Source of the DNA: Arenicella chitinivorans
GTDB lineage: Bacteria; Pseudomonadota; Gammaproteobacteria; Arenicellales; Arenicellaceae
Assembly: GCF_014651515.1 (NCBI RefSeq)
Contig: NZ_BMXA01000004.1
Location: 186,001 to 250,000, forward strand
Length of the DNA stretch: 64,000 nt
Direction: 5' to 3'
Every line of letters starts with the position of its first letter. Within the stretch, counting starts at the first letter, position 1. Positions 43,263-50,008 of the stretch are shown one piece after another. The translations under genes and the position numbers were made by a program. A model generated the notes under the pieces. It saw only the letters and a program-made list of their open reading frames with translations, did no database searches and had not been told where the DNA came from.

Positions 43263-45740
43263 ATGTTAGAATTTAAACGGACGAGGTGGCTCCCTCGTTT
43301 TCTCGTCGACGCAGAAAATAAGTCACATACCCACTGTGTGGGTGCAGTACTTCTGATCCTGCTACTGACGGTTTCATCGCTGACAACTGCGCATGCGCAA
43401 ACAGGGACTGAGCGCGACAAGTTGACATCAGTCATGAGCGTAATCAACATGTATTTGTTGGATGGCCTTTCAGCCTTTGTGCTCGAATTAGGCAAAATCG
43501 AACCGGAATCAGTCACGATCACCTCATCATTTCAAGCCAGTTTTCAAAATACCGGCCAAGATACCGAGTTGTGCTTTGTCGTTTCTGCCCCAGGTTTTTC
43601 GATTGGTGATTTATCGATCAGTATAAATGGTGTGGCACAAACAGGCAGCGCGCGCCCCAGAACAGGTGAAAACTGTTACGTCATTCCAGCTGCTCAACAA
43701 CAAGGCGAAAATATAATCCTGTTCAATGTGGGACCGGGGGTGACGGTAAATTTGAGTCGTGCTGGTATCGACCCTGCAAGTCGGAGTCGACTTGGATTAA
43801 ACTCGTTAACACGCAGCAGCTGGGACGAGCGCGCGGTACGAAAAGTACTCAAGATTTTTGCATTTGGTGGACACGCGACGGATGCACAGATCCGGGAGTG
43901 GTCTTATATGCAGCCGCGGGTAGCAATAGCTGAGATGTTGAACTTCAGTGAACATAACGCCAAGTTGTCGCCGTTGGCACGCGGAGAAAAGTACACAGAC
44001 ACAGCGTTCGCGCACGGCACAATGCGATCGTTCTATGAGTTTATAGCGTCAGAAAGCTCGGATATCCCGATTCCAGTATCTGCACGACAATATTTATCGA
44101 TCGATGGTTACCGTTTTGACAGCACTTTCGCGCGCATGATCGCGGTGCGGGGTTTGAACCCGTTCCGCCAGCGTATCGGGTTCTGGGAAACTAACTATCA
44201 TCTAGCGACTAACCTAGACGCGGGTGTGAGTCGCCAACAGATGGTTCAATATTACGATGAGATTATGGCGGCGCATGAAGCGCGACGACCCTACCATGAA
44301 ATTATGGGTGTGGCAGCTAAATCTGCGGCAGTGGCGATTCAATACGGCCACTACCGAAATCGTTGGCGCACCTCAAACGGGGAGAGCTACTGTGACTGCA
44401 ACGACGATTTTGCACGAGAAATCCACCAGTTGTTCTACGGTATTTTTGGCGCCAACGACCCCAATCATGAGGATGGGACGATCCGCGAAACAGCCAAAAT
44501 GTTGACCGATATGGATGTGCCGTACATCGAAGACTTTGGGCGCGATATTCACGTAGACTTCGATACGCGATATCACCATACCAATAGTTTGACGATCCTT
44601 GGGCAAACCATTTCGGGTGCCAATGCTAGTGCCAAAATTGATAACTTAATGCCGATATCGATAATGCACCCAGAGAGCTTGCGTAACCTGCCGGTCATGA
44701 TTATCTCTACCTTAGCAGATGACAATCTAAACGAATCGCGGCGCAATCAATTACGGGCTGCCTGGGCGGCATTGGGTACGAACAAAGACTTTCTGACGTT
44801 CATTCATGCTTACGCGACGTCTGAATTGTTTCATGGTCCTAATCAACTCAAGTATTTGACCAGTTTTGAGCGTGCCTTCTACATGGCGAACAAGTTTAAC
44901 ATCGATAACATCGAGGCTTATTTGAGCAATGATTGGGTCGACGGTCGTGCTGGGAGAGAGGTAGACGCGGTAATGGAGGGCGACAATGCCAGTGAGATCT
45001 TTAGACCATTGCACAATGTATTTGGCGGACAAAACTCGACTGAGGCTTCTGATTCAGCGGTGGCATTTGAGAAAAATTATAATCGTAGCGCTACGCAGGA
45101 ATCTTGGGAGTTCGAACGGGAATTACCGGTCGACTGCGGTACTTGCGATCTTGGACAACCTTGGGTGAAGGATTGGACCAAGGTGATACCCTCAGTGAAT
45201 GGCGGCTACACAGCCGATTACGTCGCCGAATGGCTGTGGCGTCACGTGGTTGGTAACTTTGTGAATTACACTTCGCTAGAGCGAGCGCATTTAGTCGCGA
45301 TTTTGGGTGCCCGACGTTTACCGCGTGCAGATGGGACTGAATACAGTTGGCAACAAAGTAATCGAAATACGTATTTCGATATAAACCATCTATTGTGCAT
45401 TCGAGAAGATCGTAGAGCGGTGAACCTGTCTAACAACAGCCTAGCTGATCTTATGCACTTTGATAGCTGGAACAACTATTGCGCACATGGTGATGATGGT
45501 GAAGCTGACTACACAGAGGTCGAAGAGGGCGCGTTTAATTTTAGCTTCAACGGTCAGCAACTCGACTCAAGTAACACTGATCCATTCCCGTATCTACGAG
45601 GACTCGTTGAAGAACTTGCAGTGAGCCCCGTTATGCTTAACTCGAACGACCCGATTACACGACGACGTGCTAATGAGCACTTACAAGCGGCGATAGCCTT
45701 TATCTTTGCGACCCCGTACGTGTTCGCGGAAGGAGAATAA
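43263..45740 (+). CDS. Exported DUF1800-like protein
   Basis: An 825-residue exported protein with a long basic n-region and a signal helix (VGAVLLILLLTVSSLTTAHAQ). Residues about 60-165 form a beta-rich domain. The rest resembles DUF1800: VRKVLKIFAFGGHATDAQIREW, FRQRIGFWETNYHLATN and FAREIHQLFYGIFGAND match the family's characteristic blocks. Function is unknown, but DUF1800 genes are widely paired with DUF1501 genes, as here (2-bp gap). Several Cys (CDCND, CGTCDLG) are unusual and might form disulfides. Confidence 0.7.
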   Translation: MLEFKRTRWLPRFLVDAENKSHTHCVGAVLLILLLTVSSLTTAHAQTGTERDKLTSVMSVINMYLLDGLSAFVLELGKIEPESVTITSSFQASFQNTGQDTELCFVVSAPGFSIGDLSISINGVAQTGSARPRTGENCYVIPAAQQQGENIILFNVGPGVTVNLSRAGIDPASRSRLGLNSLTRSSWDERAVRKVLKIFAFGGHATDAQIREWSYMQPRVAIAEMLNFSEHNAKLSPLARGEKYTDTAFAHGTMRSFYEFIASESSDIPIPVSARQYLSIDGYRFDSTFARMIAVRGLNPFRQRIGFWETNYHLATNLDAGVSRQQMVQYYDEIMAAHEARRPYHEIMGVAAKSAAVAIQYGHYRNRWRTSNGESYCDCNDDFAREIHQLFYGIFGANDPNHEDGTIRETAKMLTDMDVPYIEDFGRDIHVDFDTRYHHTNSLTILGQTISGANASAKIDNLMPISIMHPESLRNLPVMIISTLADDNLNESRRNQLRAAWAALGTNKDFLTFIHAYATSELFHGPNQLKYLTSFERAFYMANKFNIDNIEAYLSNDWVDGRAGREVDAVMEGDNASEIFRPLHNVFGGQNSTEASDSAVAFEKNYNRSATQESWEFERELPVDCGTCDLGQPWVKDWTKVIPSVNGGYTADYVAEWLWRHVVGNFVNYTSLERAHLVAILGARRLPRADGTEYSWQQSNRNTYFDINHLLCIREDRRAVNLSNNSLADLMHFDSWNNYCAHGDDGEADYTEVEEGAFNFSFNGQQLDSSNTDPFPYLRGLVEELAVSPVMLNSNDPITRRRANEHLQAAIAFIFATPYVFAEGE

Positions 45741-45742
45741 TC

Positions 45743-47362
45743 ATGAATAGACGACAATTCTTACAGTCTGCGTTTTACTCCGGATTAATCTATGGAACGG
45801 GCGCACTGCCTACGTTGGTAAATGAAGCACGTGCTGGGTTTGAACCGTTACAAAACCGCCTGCTGGTAAACTTATTTCTGGACGGTGGTCCTGATATGCG
45901 GCATTTGATTGTGCCGGCGTTTGACAGTAATCCAAATAGTTTTGGTTACCAATATTGGAGTAATCGGTGGCGGGCACATGATGTTGCCAATAATGCGACC
46001 GCTTGGCAACAACGTTGGAACGATGATTACTACCCTATCACCGTTGGTGGAAATAATTGGAATGGCCAACAAAACCCAGGTGGGCTCAACACGGGAACGA
46101 CCTTTGGTATTTGGCGGCACGCAGGTTGGTTGATTGATATGTTCCGTGCCGGGAATGTGGCCTTAGTATGTAATGCTGTTGGTGGTACCAATCGAGCGCA
46201 CGACTTATCGACGCTACAAATGCACCAAGGAAACGTACTATCTGGTTTGAACAATGCCGATAGATCAGGTTGGGGTGGTCGCTTAGCGCGCTCAGCTGGG
46301 GGGAATGCAATCTCAGTAACCAATAGCCCGCGAGCGTTTTGTTTTGGTCCGGTCGGTGATGCACCGAATTACAACCCGAACGCGATCGACAATCGCGATT
46401 TAATTGCGGTACAAAACTCGCGAGAAATGGGTCTAAATGTACAAGATTTGACAGAGAATCAAATCTATCGACCACAGCATAGAATGGCCCGAGCACTGAG
46501 GAGTTATTATGCAGGTAGCAGGACCGAGCAAGTTAGTCAGGCATATCAAAAATTTATGGACCATGAGCTGAAGGTGCGACAGTTTGGTGAGTTGATACGA
46601 GAGCGTTTGAGTGACTTGCCAGAGCCACCACTGATTGAAGCATTGCATCGAGCAATCAGTATTAACGGTCAGCCAGTGAATCCGGACAGTAGCAACGATG
46701 CGCGGCGCGTATTACGCAATGGTTATGGTTTTGGACGGCAAATACGAAACCTGTATGACGTCTGTGCTGCCAATGATTTGCTTGATGTACGCACTGTGTC
46801 GATGGATTACGGTGGCTGGGACAGCCATGGTGACCAACGCCGCGAAGCTAACAACCCAGATATCAACGATCCGAACGTGTATCGCGGCATCGAAAGTGGG
46901 TTTAAAGATATTTTCGGTGGGCAGTTCGCGGGTGGTGTTCAGCCATTTGACGACACCCAATTGCATGGGGGGTTCTCTGCACTGTGGGCATCACTAAATT
47001 CGGTTGATCGAAACAAAATTGTGCTGACCATAGCAGGCGAATTTGGCCGCCAGATCCGAGACAATGGCGATGGCGGCACGGACCATGGAAAAGGCAATAT
47101 CATGTTTGTAATCGGTGATAACGTTCGCGGTGGTATTTACGGCGAACTGTTTCCAGACGCCGAAGTCGATAAGTATGCAGACACTTCTCTGAGGACACCG
47201 GATATTGATCCGCGGACCAGTATAGATCCGATCTTTTCACGCGTGTGTGATTGGGTGTCGCCGAATTCTGGTTCTATTGTGTTCCCAAGAATGGCACCAG
47301 GTTACAGTGGCGAACAAGCGATAATCGAATCGGCAGGCATGTTCAATAGTTTGTTCATTTAA
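45743..47362 (+). CDS. DUF1501 family protein with Tat-like signal
   Basis: A 539-residue protein of the alkaline-phosphatase/sulfatase-like DUF1501 family. The N-terminus MNRRQFLQSAFYSGLIYGTGAL is a twin-arginine-type signal, implying export in folded form. Characteristic blocks are LLVNLFLDGGPDMRHLIVP, DYGGWDSHGDQ, IAGEFGRQIRDNGDGGTDHG and VIGDNVRGGIYGELFP. The Asp/His-rich sites suggest metal binding. Function unknown; translation is probably coupled to the DUF1800 gene (GGAG in the 2-bp junction). Confidence 0.88.
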   Translation: MNRRQFLQSAFYSGLIYGTGALPTLVNEARAGFEPLQNRLLVNLFLDGGPDMRHLIVPAFDSNPNSFGYQYWSNRWRAHDVANNATAWQQRWNDDYYPITVGGNNWNGQQNPGGLNTGTTFGIWRHAGWLIDMFRAGNVALVCNAVGGTNRAHDLSTLQMHQGNVLSGLNNADRSGWGGRLARSAGGNAISVTNSPRAFCFGPVGDAPNYNPNAIDNRDLIAVQNSREMGLNVQDLTENQIYRPQHRMARALRSYYAGSRTEQVSQAYQKFMDHELKVRQFGELIRERLSDLPEPPLIEALHRAISINGQPVNPDSSNDARRVLRNGYGFGRQIRNLYDVCAANDLLDVRTVSMDYGGWDSHGDQRREANNPDINDPNVYRGIESGFKDIFGGQFAGGVQPFDDTQLHGGFSALWASLNSVDRNKIVLTIAGEFGRQIRDNGDGGTDHGKGNIMFVIGDNVRGGIYGELFPDAEVDKYADTSLRTPDIDPRTSIDPIFSRVCDWVSPNSGSIVFPRMAPGYSGEQAIIESAGMFNSLFI

Positions 47363-47366
47363 TACT

Positions 47367-49190
47367 ATGTTGCAATTTCGGGGTTTGGCAGTAAGACTGC
47401 TGTTCTTCTCGCTGCTGTCGATCGTATTAAGTCAAGTTGCGTTAGCGCGGGACGAGTATCGTGGTTGGTGGCAGGAAGAATACGGCGCGCAGTCTACGTC
47501 GGGCGACGCGGTGTGTCAGTTGTGTCATGAGCGAGGTGGGGGTGGTAATGGGTGGAACCGGTATGGTTGGTTGGTTCGATCCCTCTACCTTTCAAACTCA
47601 GATATCACTGACATTGAACAGCGTTTGAAACAAAGTTTGTCCGATGTCGAAAACTTTGCCACCGACCCGAATGATGCCGGAAGCCCGACATTTCTGCAGG
47701 AGATCCAGGCGAATGCACAACCTGGTTGGCGTCAAACTGACAATAACCGTATTCGCTACGTTGACGATCCCGATAAATTCATCGGTCCACCGGCATCGTT
47801 GCCGTGTGCGTTATTGGTCGATGCCGGCGATAGCGAGCTTACCTGCTCCACGCGCAACCCGATTCCGACATCCATCCCCGCCGGCGCAACGGTGAAATTA
47901 ACCACCGTGGCCACCGGCTTTACCGCCCCCGTTTCTGCGCTGTCTGCGCCCGGCGAGCCTGAATCAATTTACGTGGTGGAGCAGGGTGGTCAAATTTGGC
48001 GAGTCAATCTGAGGACCGGCGAGAAACGGCTTTTTCTGGATTTCAGTAACAAACTCGTGGCTAACTATGGGAATCCTATACCAAGTTTTCCTGGCTATGA
48101 CGAGCGTGGTTTACTTGGGTTCGTGTTTCACCCGGATTACGCAACCAACGGCAAAGTGATCACCTATATTTCAGAGGATTTTCAAACTGGGCGTGCACAT
48201 TTTTCAACCATGCCGCCCGGACAGGACCCTGATCACCAGTCGGTGGTTACGGAGTGGGTAGTGCTCAACCCGTTGTCGCCGACGCCAAGTGCGTCTAACG
48301 AACGTATTTTGATGGTGGTTGATCAACCGCAATTCAATCACAATGGTGGCATGCTGGCCTTCGGACCCGATGGGTATCTCTACATTGCTTTGGGTGATGG
48401 TGGTCTGCGCAATGATGAAGGCGTAGGGCATAGTAGCGATGGGAATGGCCAAGACATTGACACGATCCTGGGGAGCATTGTACGTATTCATAGCGATGCC
48501 GTGGCACCGATCAACGGACGGTATGGTGTGCCGACCGATAATCCGTTTTTTGGCAGCAGCGGTTTGCATGAAGTTTATGTGTACGGTCTCCGTAACCCGT
48601 ACCGGTTCTCTGTAGAAACTAGGGGGTCAAATGATTTTGATTTGTATATTGGTGACGTCGGTCAAGATGCAATTGAGGAAGTCAATCGTGTTTCCTCCAA
48701 CAACCCAGGCGTCAATTTAGGCTGGAACCATAAGGAAGGCAGCTTTTATTTCTCGGTGATTGACGGCACCACATACGTGTCGCCAACGCCACCATTTGGC
48801 GTGAATCTGCCGCCGATGCAAGATCCGATTGTGGAGTATGACCACGAAGAAGGGATATCCGTCATAGGAGGTTATGTCTATCGCGGCTCGGCAGTTTCAG
48901 CGCTTCAAGGTCATTATGTTTTTGCTGACTGGGGCCGAGGGTTTGCTAACAACGGGCGCTTGTTTATGATCGCCGGGAATAATCAACTTCGAGAAATACG
49001 TGTTACGAACGGTGTGTCGATGCACATTACCGGGTTTGGGAAAGACGCTAACCAGGAATTGTATGTGGTAGGAAGCCCAGACTTTGTGGTGTCCGCCAAC
49101 ACGGGACTATTACAGCGTGTGGAGCCAGAAGACGACATGTGCTTGCCTATTAAGACACGACGCGAAACATTGGCGTTAATTTGTCTATAA
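47367..49190 (+). CDS. PQQ-type glucose/sorbosone dehydrogenase-like protein with heme-like CxxCH
   Basis: A 607-residue exported beta-propeller protein. A signal peptide (1-27, cut after VALA) is followed by CQLCH (Cys50, Cys53, His54), a possible c-type heme site. The six-bladed propeller of the glucose/sorbosone dehydrogenase family follows from about 170: QPQFNHNGGMLAFGPDGYLYIALGDGG, VYGLRNPYRFSVET, IGDVGQDAIEEVNRV, GVNLGWNHKEG. These include the His and Arg that normally contact PQQ. It is 4 bp behind the DUF1501 gene. Substrate unknown, and heme binding needs proof since the segment is Gly-rich and short. Confidence 0.82.
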   Translation: MLQFRGLAVRLLFFSLLSIVLSQVALARDEYRGWWQEEYGAQSTSGDAVCQLCHERGGGGNGWNRYGWLVRSLYLSNSDITDIEQRLKQSLSDVENFATDPNDAGSPTFLQEIQANAQPGWRQTDNNRIRYVDDPDKFIGPPASLPCALLVDAGDSELTCSTRNPIPTSIPAGATVKLTTVATGFTAPVSALSAPGEPESIYVVEQGGQIWRVNLRTGEKRLFLDFSNKLVANYGNPIPSFPGYDERGLLGFVFHPDYATNGKVITYISEDFQTGRAHFSTMPPGQDPDHQSVVTEWVVLNPLSPTPSASNERILMVVDQPQFNHNGGMLAFGPDGYLYIALGDGGLRNDEGVGHSSDGNGQDIDTILGSIVRIHSDAVAPINGRYGVPTDNPFFGSSGLHEVYVYGLRNPYRFSVETRGSNDFDLYIGDVGQDAIEEVNRVSSNNPGVNLGWNHKEGSFYFSVIDGTTYVSPTPPFGVNLPPMQDPIVEYDHEEGISVIGGYVYRGSAVSALQGHYVFADWGRGFANNGRLFMIAGNNQLREIRVTNGVSMHITGFGKDANQELYVVGSPDFVVSANTGLLQRVEPEDDMCLPIKTRRETLALICL

Positions 49191-49252: not shown

Positions 49253-50008
49253 ATGACATCAAAAACAGCGTTTATTACCGGTGCCTCAGTCGGTATTGGT
49301 CGAGCTACGGCAAATGTGCTCGCGGACCAAGGGTATCAACTTGTATTATTGGCGCGCCGAGCAGAGAAGCTCGATGCATTGGCTGCTCAATTATCGACGC
49401 CGGTCCACATAATTGCCTGCGACATCAATGATCATGCCGCCGTCGATGCCGCGTTGCACAGCATGCCGGAAATATTTCGTAATCCAGATGTTTTGGTCAA
49501 CAATGCAGGACTCGCCTTGGGGATCAAGCCTGCCGATCAGACAGACTGGTTGGACTGGCAAACCATGATCCAAACTAATTGTCTTTCGTTAGCCTACCTG
49601 ACACGGAAAATCCTGCCATCAATGGTTGAACGTAATCAGGGACATATCATTAATCTCGGTTCGATTGCAGGACGTTACCCTTATCAGGGTGGGAATGTGT
49701 ATGGCGCGACCAAGGCGTTCGTAGAGCAGTTTTCCCGTAATCTGCGCACCGATGTTTTGGGTAAACAAATACGCGTGACGAACCTGTCGCCAGGCATTAT
49801 CGGTAACACAGAGTTTTCATTGGTGCGCTTGCATGGTGATGAGTCTGCGGCCAACGCGGTGTATGACTCGTGCCAAGCGTTAACGCCAGAAGACATCGCT
49901 GAATGCATTCGTTGGGCTGTGACGCTTCCGGCTCACGTGAATATCAATGAAATTGAAGTCATGCCGACATGTCAGGCCGCTGGTGGCCTTGCGATAGCCA
50001 GAGACTAG
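49253..50008 (+). CDS. Short-chain dehydrogenase/reductase (YdfG-like)
   Basis: A 251-residue classical SDR. The cofactor motif is TGASVGIG, followed by the basic LLARRAEKL that favours NADP. NNAG (VLVNNAGLALG), the catalytic Ser (INLGSIAGRYPY) and YxxxK (VYGATKAF) are in place. It resembles the YdfG group, which oxidises L-serine and 3-hydroxy acids. The start follows a perfect Shine-Dalgarno (TAAGGAGGTCAGC). Its stop overlaps the small minus-strand gene at 50005. Confidence 0.9.
   Translation: MTSKTAFITGASVGIGRATANVLADQGYQLVLLARRAEKLDALAAQLSTPVHIIACDINDHAAVDAALHSMPEIFRNPDVLVNNAGLALGIKPADQTDWLDWQTMIQTNCLSLAYLTRKILPSMVERNQGHIINLGSIAGRYPYQGGNVYGATKAFVEQFSRNLRTDVLGKQIRVTNLSPGIIGNTEFSLVRLHGDESAANAVYDSCQALTPEDIAECIRWAVTLPAHVNINEIEVMPTCQAAGGLAIARD

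Follow-up and report, generated by a model that had tools for sequence, protein, structure and literature searches.

An Arenicella-specific operon joins a DUF1800-DUF1501 pair to an exported CxxCH-domain propeller protein with a widely shared C-terminal tail

Proteins of the DUF1800 (PF08811; COG5267) and DUF1501 (PF07394; COG4102) families are common and occur as pairs, and no activity for either was reported in the passages of openly licensed PMC text retrieved under their DUF and COG names. COG3391 is a beta-propeller family. In published work, the two genes adjoin chitin synthases in some bacteria (PMC5122149), planctomycete analogues are linked to carbohydrate-binding domains (PMC5615132), and SAR202 genomes show a correlated expansion of COG4102, COG5267 and COG3391 (PMC6946804). 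Here we analyze a three-gene operon in a 64,000-nucleotide stretch of the Arenicella chitinivorans genome (hereafter the window; contig NZ_BMXA01000004.1, positions 186,001 to 250,000), in which a DUF1800-DUF1501 pair is followed by an exported protein with a CxxCH domain and a propeller (Table 1). We propose, tentatively and with a confidence slightly short of even, that the products form a genus-specific, co-inherited extracytoplasmic unit in which the pair is the catalytic core and the third protein is a heme-propeller partner delivered to the cell surface. A fixed partner with recognizable parts would offer a concrete handle on the chemistry of the pair.

Table 1. Features of the operon, in window coordinates (aa, amino acids; ORF, open reading frame).
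Feature	Coordinates	Strand	Characteristics and basis
Gene 1, divergent DUF1800 protein, 825 aa	43263..45740	+	Sec-like leader; ORF call and Pfam
Gene 2, DUF1501 protein, 539 aa	45743..47362	+	twin-arginine leader MNRRQFLQ; ORF call and Pfam
Gene 3, exported heme-domain/propeller protein, 607 aa	47367..49190	+	ORF call, Pfam, alignment, PDB profile matches
CxxCH domain of gene 3, residues 26-127	47442..47747	+	alignment A2, 22 sequences
GSDH/HHIP-type propeller of gene 3	47862..49100	+	Pfam GSDH, PDB profile matches
C-terminal tag MCLPIKTRRETLALICL and stop codon	49137..49190 (tag without stop 49137-49187)	+	alignments A1/A8, genome searches

ORF calls and Pfam searches agree with an earlier note, made from these letters alone, that three adjacent genes of exported type lie here on one strand, separated by 2 bp (genes 1 and 2) and 4 bp (genes 2 and 3). 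Its proposal of export signals, one of them of the twin-arginine (Tat) type, also held when the leaders were judged by eye, with a Tat-like N-terminus on gene 2 and hydrophobic Sec-like leaders on the other two. The label DUF1800 stands for gene 1 in that the protein passes the Pfam cut-off (41.7 against 26.1 bits, E 1.1e-10), but it needs correction to a divergent DUF1800, with a match limited to residues 289-525. A six-frame search of the same genome with PF08811 gave no match, although hmmscan of the gene 1 protein passes the cut-off; family surveys can therefore overlook this gene. A possible Ig-like beta domain, seen as a low-confidence predicted beta segment, lies upstream of the DUF1800 region at about residues 82-172. 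Gene 2 passes the PF07394 cut-off (47.6 against 27 bits) and gene 3 that of GSDH (PF07995; 80.3 against 25 bits). Predicted models of the DUF1800 and third proteins were poor (mean predicted local distance difference test scores of 35.4 and 32.9, from input alignments of 3 and 2 rows). A short-chain dehydrogenase (SDR) gene at 49253-50008, on the same strand and 62 bp 3' of gene 3, adjoins the triplet in several relatives and could be co-transcribed with it.

We surveyed 61 genomes, namely the window's own, 17 others of the same genus and further members of the same family and order, using each of the three proteins as a query, fetching the matching loci and re-calling their ORFs (genomes and loci are designated G and L below). 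Of the 18 genus genomes, 13 have the triplet unbroken and 4 have it truncated where a contig ends; in the remaining one (G008) it was not seen. The earlier note had asked for this check and named, as part of what would refute its proposal, a third gene that is never linked to the pair in relatives; the gene is in fact linked in 17 of the 18, counting the four contig-end cuts. The window's kind of cluster, type A (DUF1800 of ~825 aa, DUF1501 of ~540 aa, heme-propeller protein of ~600 aa), is unbroken in 12 of the 18 (G000-G005, G007, G009-G013), while truncated loci in G006, G014, G015 and G016 are consistent with it and G017 has a type B form only (L081). In type B clusters (the upstream cluster of L074, L080 and L081) a heme-propeller protein accompanies a canonical DUF1800 of 575-616 aa and a DUF1501 of 459-494 aa, and type C clusters (L082, L083) combine a DUF1800 of 712-714 aa with a DUF1501 of 452-467 aa and a protein of 164-168 aa that consists of the heme domain only. 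Throughout types A, B and C the heme-domain gene keeps the third position.

Duplications in the genus involve the entire cluster: G005 holds three whole-triplet copies, two of them in tandem, and G003 holds two, of which one is truncated where its contig ends. A type A and a type B triplet occur together in G002 and again in G010. Pairwise distances among 13 triplets from 11 genomes were correlated between DUF1800 and DUF1501 (r = 0.92), DUF1800 and the third protein (r = 0.81) and DUF1501 and the third protein (r = 0.75), and 0 of 5000 permutations reached each observed value. At least one of the genes flanking the operon in the window (PHP, PepN, SDR, DUF934, CysI) adjoins 10 of the 16 other type A loci, with L073 counted once and L148-L150 included; all five are present at L073, L075, L076 and L077, and none at L074, L079, L084, L085, L088 or L150, the last being only 4.2 kb long. 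As the gene order recurs across the genus, it is not due to chance, and as duplications carry the whole triplet and the distances correlate, the triplet is a unit rather than a set of mere neighbors. We conclude that it is a real, conserved and co-inherited operon that is specific to Arenicella.

Outside the genus, PF08811 was present in 26 of 185 Gammaproteobacteria genomes, and their 35 DUF1800 loci, together with one from another family of the order (L237, in G031), made up a set of 36. DUF1501 lies beside DUF1800 in 34 of these, and at L227 and L235 DUF1800 runs to the contig end. No match to the heme-domain, third-protein or tag profiles was found beside DUF1800 at any of the 36 loci (E 0.01). 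CxxCH motifs occur in some ORFs near these pairs (for example at L204, L214, L217, L223 and L228); none is a heme-domain match, and the one at L228 belongs to a GFA-family enzyme. Because none of the 36 loci has such a partner, we regard the pair as a general two-gene module to which the third gene is a lineage-specific addition, and this addition does not make DUF1800-DUF1501 pairs at large part of an oxidation system. The earlier note's placement of the pair as such in an extracytoplasmic oxidation system is thus not upheld, and we rejected a general link between the pair and heme genes.

In an alignment of 25 diverse DUF1501 sequences (A9), H153, D360, H362, D447 and H448 are invariant and D51 is nearly so, and gene 1 shares A384, R385, E386 and H438, and nearly H469, with canonical DUF1800 proteins. 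As to an alkaline-phosphatase-like fold for DUF1501, profile searches of the PDB returned Tat-leader or chance matches only, and one DUF1501 relative (L082) gave a weak match to PF01663 (E 0.015) below the family cut-off. Since the DUF1501 Asp/His set is typical of a metal site, and since DUF1800 keeps a Glu and two His, the pair is likely to be the catalytic core of the unit. DUF1501 would probably be a metal-dependent hydrolase- or transferase-like enzyme, and loading with metal in the cytoplasm would account for its Tat leader. This Asp/His set is the one basis for the metal dependence that the earlier note had suggested.

The third protein contains a single CxxCH (CQLCH, residues 50-54) in a domain with the pattern W..YP.S....CQxCH...GG..WNxYG ... 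EI...QPGW. CQxCH is present in 22 of 22 third proteins (L073-L092 and the window) and also in L148-L150, and the invariant columns of A2 are Y14, C25, Q26, C28, H29, G34, W38, N39, Y41, G42, P94 and W96; the possible heme site of the earlier note is thereby supported at the sequence level. At L082 and L083 the domain stands by itself (164 and 168 aa). A CxxCH in an exported protein (export judged by eye) is accompanied by a heme-attachment system, as expected for a c-type cytochrome: CcmE was found in the same genome (E 2.5e-29) and in 11 of the 13 genus genomes searched. No Pfam cytochrome family matched the domain well (the best, PF13442, matched 3 of 22 members at E 0.12), and a profile search of the PDB gave no good match to a solved structure. 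We consider it likely that the domain binds heme c.

The same domain occurs in 10 of 274 genomes of the class, 7 of them outside the genus, and we sampled eight loci from six of these seven (G288 was left out). Four of the eight domains lie N-terminal to PKD repeats (L137-L140), two are in proteins of 253-265 aa, and two form the N-terminus of Gammaproteobacteria proteins that contain 10 and 14 CxxCH motifs (L141:8244-10718 and L144:3546-7826). No DUF1800 or DUF1501 match was present at the eight loci within the 9-18 kb fetched. We tentatively read the domain as a probable c-type heme module appended to various extracellular proteins. A fusion of heme domain and propeller outside the genus, considered for L137-L140, was rejected, as all four are PKD-repeat proteins in which the profile had matched the heme domain only. 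Nor do we claim a Temptin-like origin, for which a match to PF24784 in one short relative (L143, E 0.0097) fell below the cut-off and was shared by 0 of 22 A2 members.

With the propeller, a PDB profile search reported up to E 10 matched 13 sequences, of which the best were five of Hedgehog-interacting protein (HHIP; 5e-50 to 1e-49), followed by soluble pyrroloquinoline quinone (PQQ)-glucose dehydrogenase (s-GDH; 3e-24) and then aldose dehydrogenases. The HHIP match includes the C-terminal stretch 481-587 (3ho3, 2wft and others), whereas s-GDH aligns over the first part of the propeller only (profile 162-437). TIGR03606, the glucose/sorbosone PQQ dehydrogenase family, scored 54.4 bits against a cut-off of 434.55, the scores listed reaching no further than E 1e-22, and the PQQ synthesis marker pqqC (TIGR02111) was found in 0 of 18 genus genomes and in 1 of all 61 searched. 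PQQ can be taken up from outside, so lack of synthesis leaves uptake possible. In the third-protein alignment (A5), R409 is invariant and H325 and N410 are nearly so. When query positions 19-114 are placed on positions 142-237 of the s-GDH chain, as the match coordinates indicate, H325, R409 and N410 correspond to His144, Arg228 and Asn229, respectively, which we take to be catalytic or active-site residues. Third proteins mostly read G[LF]RNPYR at this point, and the Arg/Asn pair is lost in HHIP (GLHDPGR).

These residues and the GSDH family match argue for gene 3 as a PQQ-dependent sugar dehydrogenase that would scavenge PQQ and use its own heme as electron outlet, making the triplet a sugar-oxidizing system. 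A precedent is the fungal enzyme CcSDH, described as a secreted protein with a heme b domain and a GSDH-like propeller, which binds PQQ (Kd 1.11 nM) and depends on it while lacking several PQQ-binding residues of the bacterial enzymes, as HHIP does; that text adds that some prokaryotes need exogenous PQQ, and that the bacterial and archaeal homologues its authors found have no cytochrome domain (PMC4133262). Given CcSDH, the absence of pqqC and of canonical residues is not decisive for gene 3. With pqqC missing from all 18 genus genomes, the TIGR03606 score far below its cut-off, the s-GDH alignment only partial and the nearest fold relative, HHIP, itself short of PQQ-binding residues (PMC4133262), we nevertheless rate this reading as rather unlikely. 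Of the sugar-dehydrogenase propeller named in the earlier note, the GSDH family match stands, and the label "PQQ dehydrogenase" or sugar dehydrogenase is premature and not established.

Among solved structures HHIP leads the next match by 26 orders of magnitude in E-value, and gene 3 could instead be an HHIP-like surface subunit, ligand-binding or structural, with no oxidoreductase chemistry; its CxxCH would then be structural or hold another metal, and the triplet would handle or anchor an extracellular polymer. Such a role fits the fusion of the CxxCH domain to PKD-repeat proteins in other families, the lack of a conserved distal ligand in that domain (below), and the position of DUF1800-DUF1501 beside chitin synthases in some bacteria (PMC5122149). 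It sits poorly with the invariant spacing and order of the CxxCH, with the domain's place at the head of multi-CxxCH proteins, and with the retention in third proteins of residues that HHIP has lost, and we judge it unlikely.

The most novel feature of the operon is the C-terminal tail of gene 3. The tail has the form C-x-x-x…CL-COOH / C-x-P-I...[IV]C-L-COOH, with the two Cys 13-14 residues apart and Leu last, and it directly precedes the stop codon in 23 of 23 full-length third proteins (20 from L073-L092 and the window, plus L148-L150; two more, cut by contig ends, were not counted). We searched the 61 genomes with an alignment of 22 tails, 20 from third proteins and 2 from unrelated neighbors. 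At E <=0.001 there were 108 matches, among them the 22 alignment members: 105 in 17 of the 18 genus genomes and 3 in G028, which belongs to another family; the remaining 42 genomes had none. Genomes that had contributed no member also matched (G006 6, G008 6, G009 7, G014 5, G016 1, G028 3), and G015, whose third gene is cut before the tail, did not. About 11 of the 108 rows lie in open frames shorter than 90 aa, where either a gene with a broken frame or a chance match may be the cause. When we fetched 20 tagged places, mainly long frames, 20 of 20 had the tail at the stop codon, one with its first Cys replaced and one ending in CI; L152-L171 are among the tail-bearing loci. Two more places in the window's genome, L146:4247-4576 (a 109-aa frame, E 0.0024) and L147:3123-4679 (a 518-aa frame, E 0.033), were scored with an alignment that did not contain them.

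The tail is common to unrelated exoenzymes. The proteins that we scanned include two subtilases, an M12B-type metalloprotease (in the window's genome), a porphyranase-domain protein, a GDSL lipase and a propeller-like protein, along with several that have no family assignment. In G028, of another family of the same order, the tail is on a subtilase (L145). Among 274 genomes of the class, a 43-row tail alignment that included the own-genome tails matched six at E 0.01: three of the genus, two weak ones and G183, of a distant family, in which a single protein (L242, E 1.5e-5) ends with ...CFPIVARPGKIAVICI at the stop codon. Its presence in G028 and G183 suggests transfer of the tag or of its machinery. 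Pfam and NCBIfam gave no match to the 22 tails up to E 10, a search in which HMMER filters can drop short weak matches, and we found no paper describing the tail in literature combining Arenicella with CTERM or secretion, or in the wider literature as judged by title. In the model of gene 3 the tail forms two strands, 592-596 and 602-606, which fits a hairpin; the model is poor and we place no confidence in it. From its sequence and distribution, the tail looks like an undescribed C-terminal sorting tag; if confirmed as such, it would be a finding in its own right, of wider reach than the operon.

Because many unrelated proteins carry this tail, gene 3 might be one more tagged exoprotein that is co-transcribed with the pair and shares no function with it, as might also be argued from pairs that stand alone elsewhere and from third genes outside the operon at L091 and L092. 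Strict linkage through whole-triplet duplications, congruent divergence and the constant third position of the heme-domain gene in every cluster type make this explanation improbable.

Several observations weigh against the three-protein unit that we prefer. In G008, of the same genus, the propeller match lacks the rest of the triplet, DUF1501 is present only as a fragment at a contig start and a protein search found no DUF1800 match. At L091 the third gene and a type B pair are on opposite strands, and the 14-kb stretch of L092 showed a third gene but no pair. Type C clusters have the heme domain without any propeller, so some versions can do without the propeller. A2 has no His column (at least six sequences) beyond the CxxCH and no Met column, so a heme, if bound, would have no obvious distal ligand. 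Shared species history accounts for part of the mirror-tree correlation, pqqC is absent, and since no heme partner occurs at the 36 outside loci, the pair can work without the third protein. We counted in favor of the unit the linkage, triplet duplications and distance correlations, the invariant CQxCH with CcmE, the active-site-like residues kept in the propeller and in DUF1501 (D51, H153, D360, H362, D447, H448), the domain at the head of the 10- and 14-CxxCH proteins, and CcSDH as a precedent for joining heme to a GSDH-like propeller (PMC4133262).

In the preferred unit, the third protein would be a dedicated partner of the pair, and its tail would direct it to the cell surface. There the propeller may bind or oxidize what the pair binds or produces, and the single c-type heme may pass electrons on. 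A sugar-containing molecule is the best guess for this ligand because of the reported chitin-synthase linkage (PMC5122149) and the planctomycete analogues with carbohydrate-binding domains (PMC5615132). A broader combination, possible but doubtful, is that the tail is a new two-Cys, hairpin-like sorting signal for exoenzymes without a transmembrane anchor, and that gene 3 is a bacterial c-heme counterpart of fungal heme-propeller sugar oxidases, wired to DUF1800-DUF1501 as an extracellular electron-transfer complex.

The operon resembles several known systems in part. With the widespread DUF1800-DUF1501 (PF08811-PF07394; COG5267-COG4102) pair it shares the usual order, the close spacing of the genes and a DUF1501 leader of the Tat type, and it differs in its long divergent DUF1800 and added heme-domain gene. 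PSCyt/PSD1-DUF1501 pairs of Planctomycetes and Verrucomicrobia have a comparable arrangement, but the Arenicella triplet has no PSD domain. The one PSD1 locus found in 229 genomes (L239:1-2706), from a Gammaproteobacteria assembly that has 6% contamination, has a planctomycete-type PSD1 (DUF1553) gene 22 bp ahead of a DUF1501 gene. DUF1800 and PSD1 resemble each other so faintly (hhalign probability 3.4; E 0.001, against one target sequence) that we claim no kinship and treat the similarity as a lead only. PVC-type heme-binding CxxCH proteins (TIGR02604), in which heme c is fused to a GSDH-like propeller, were matched weakly by 8 of 18 third proteins and not by the window's own. HHIP, the best solved-structure match of the propeller, is a binding protein with no CxxCH domain within the matched region. 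In the AA8-AA12 fusion CcSDH, too, a single secreted polypeptide carries a heme domain on the N-terminal side of its GSDH-like propeller, which is related to HHIP; its AA8 domain is a beta domain with heme b and Met/His ligands (PMC4133262), whereas gene 3 has a c-type CxxCH and no AA8 domain, and we recognized no AA12 entry in the set of 13 PDB matches (E up to 10). For the tail, the nearest parallels are PEP-CTERM, GlyGly-CTERM and MYXO-CTERM, which are likewise short conserved sequences that end many otherwise unrelated exported proteins within a clade (PMC1569441, PMC6219818, PMC11980579). On inspection, the Arenicella tail, which ends in ...ICL-COOH, differs from all three in lacking their motifs, transmembrane helix and basic tail and in having two Cys and a final Leu.

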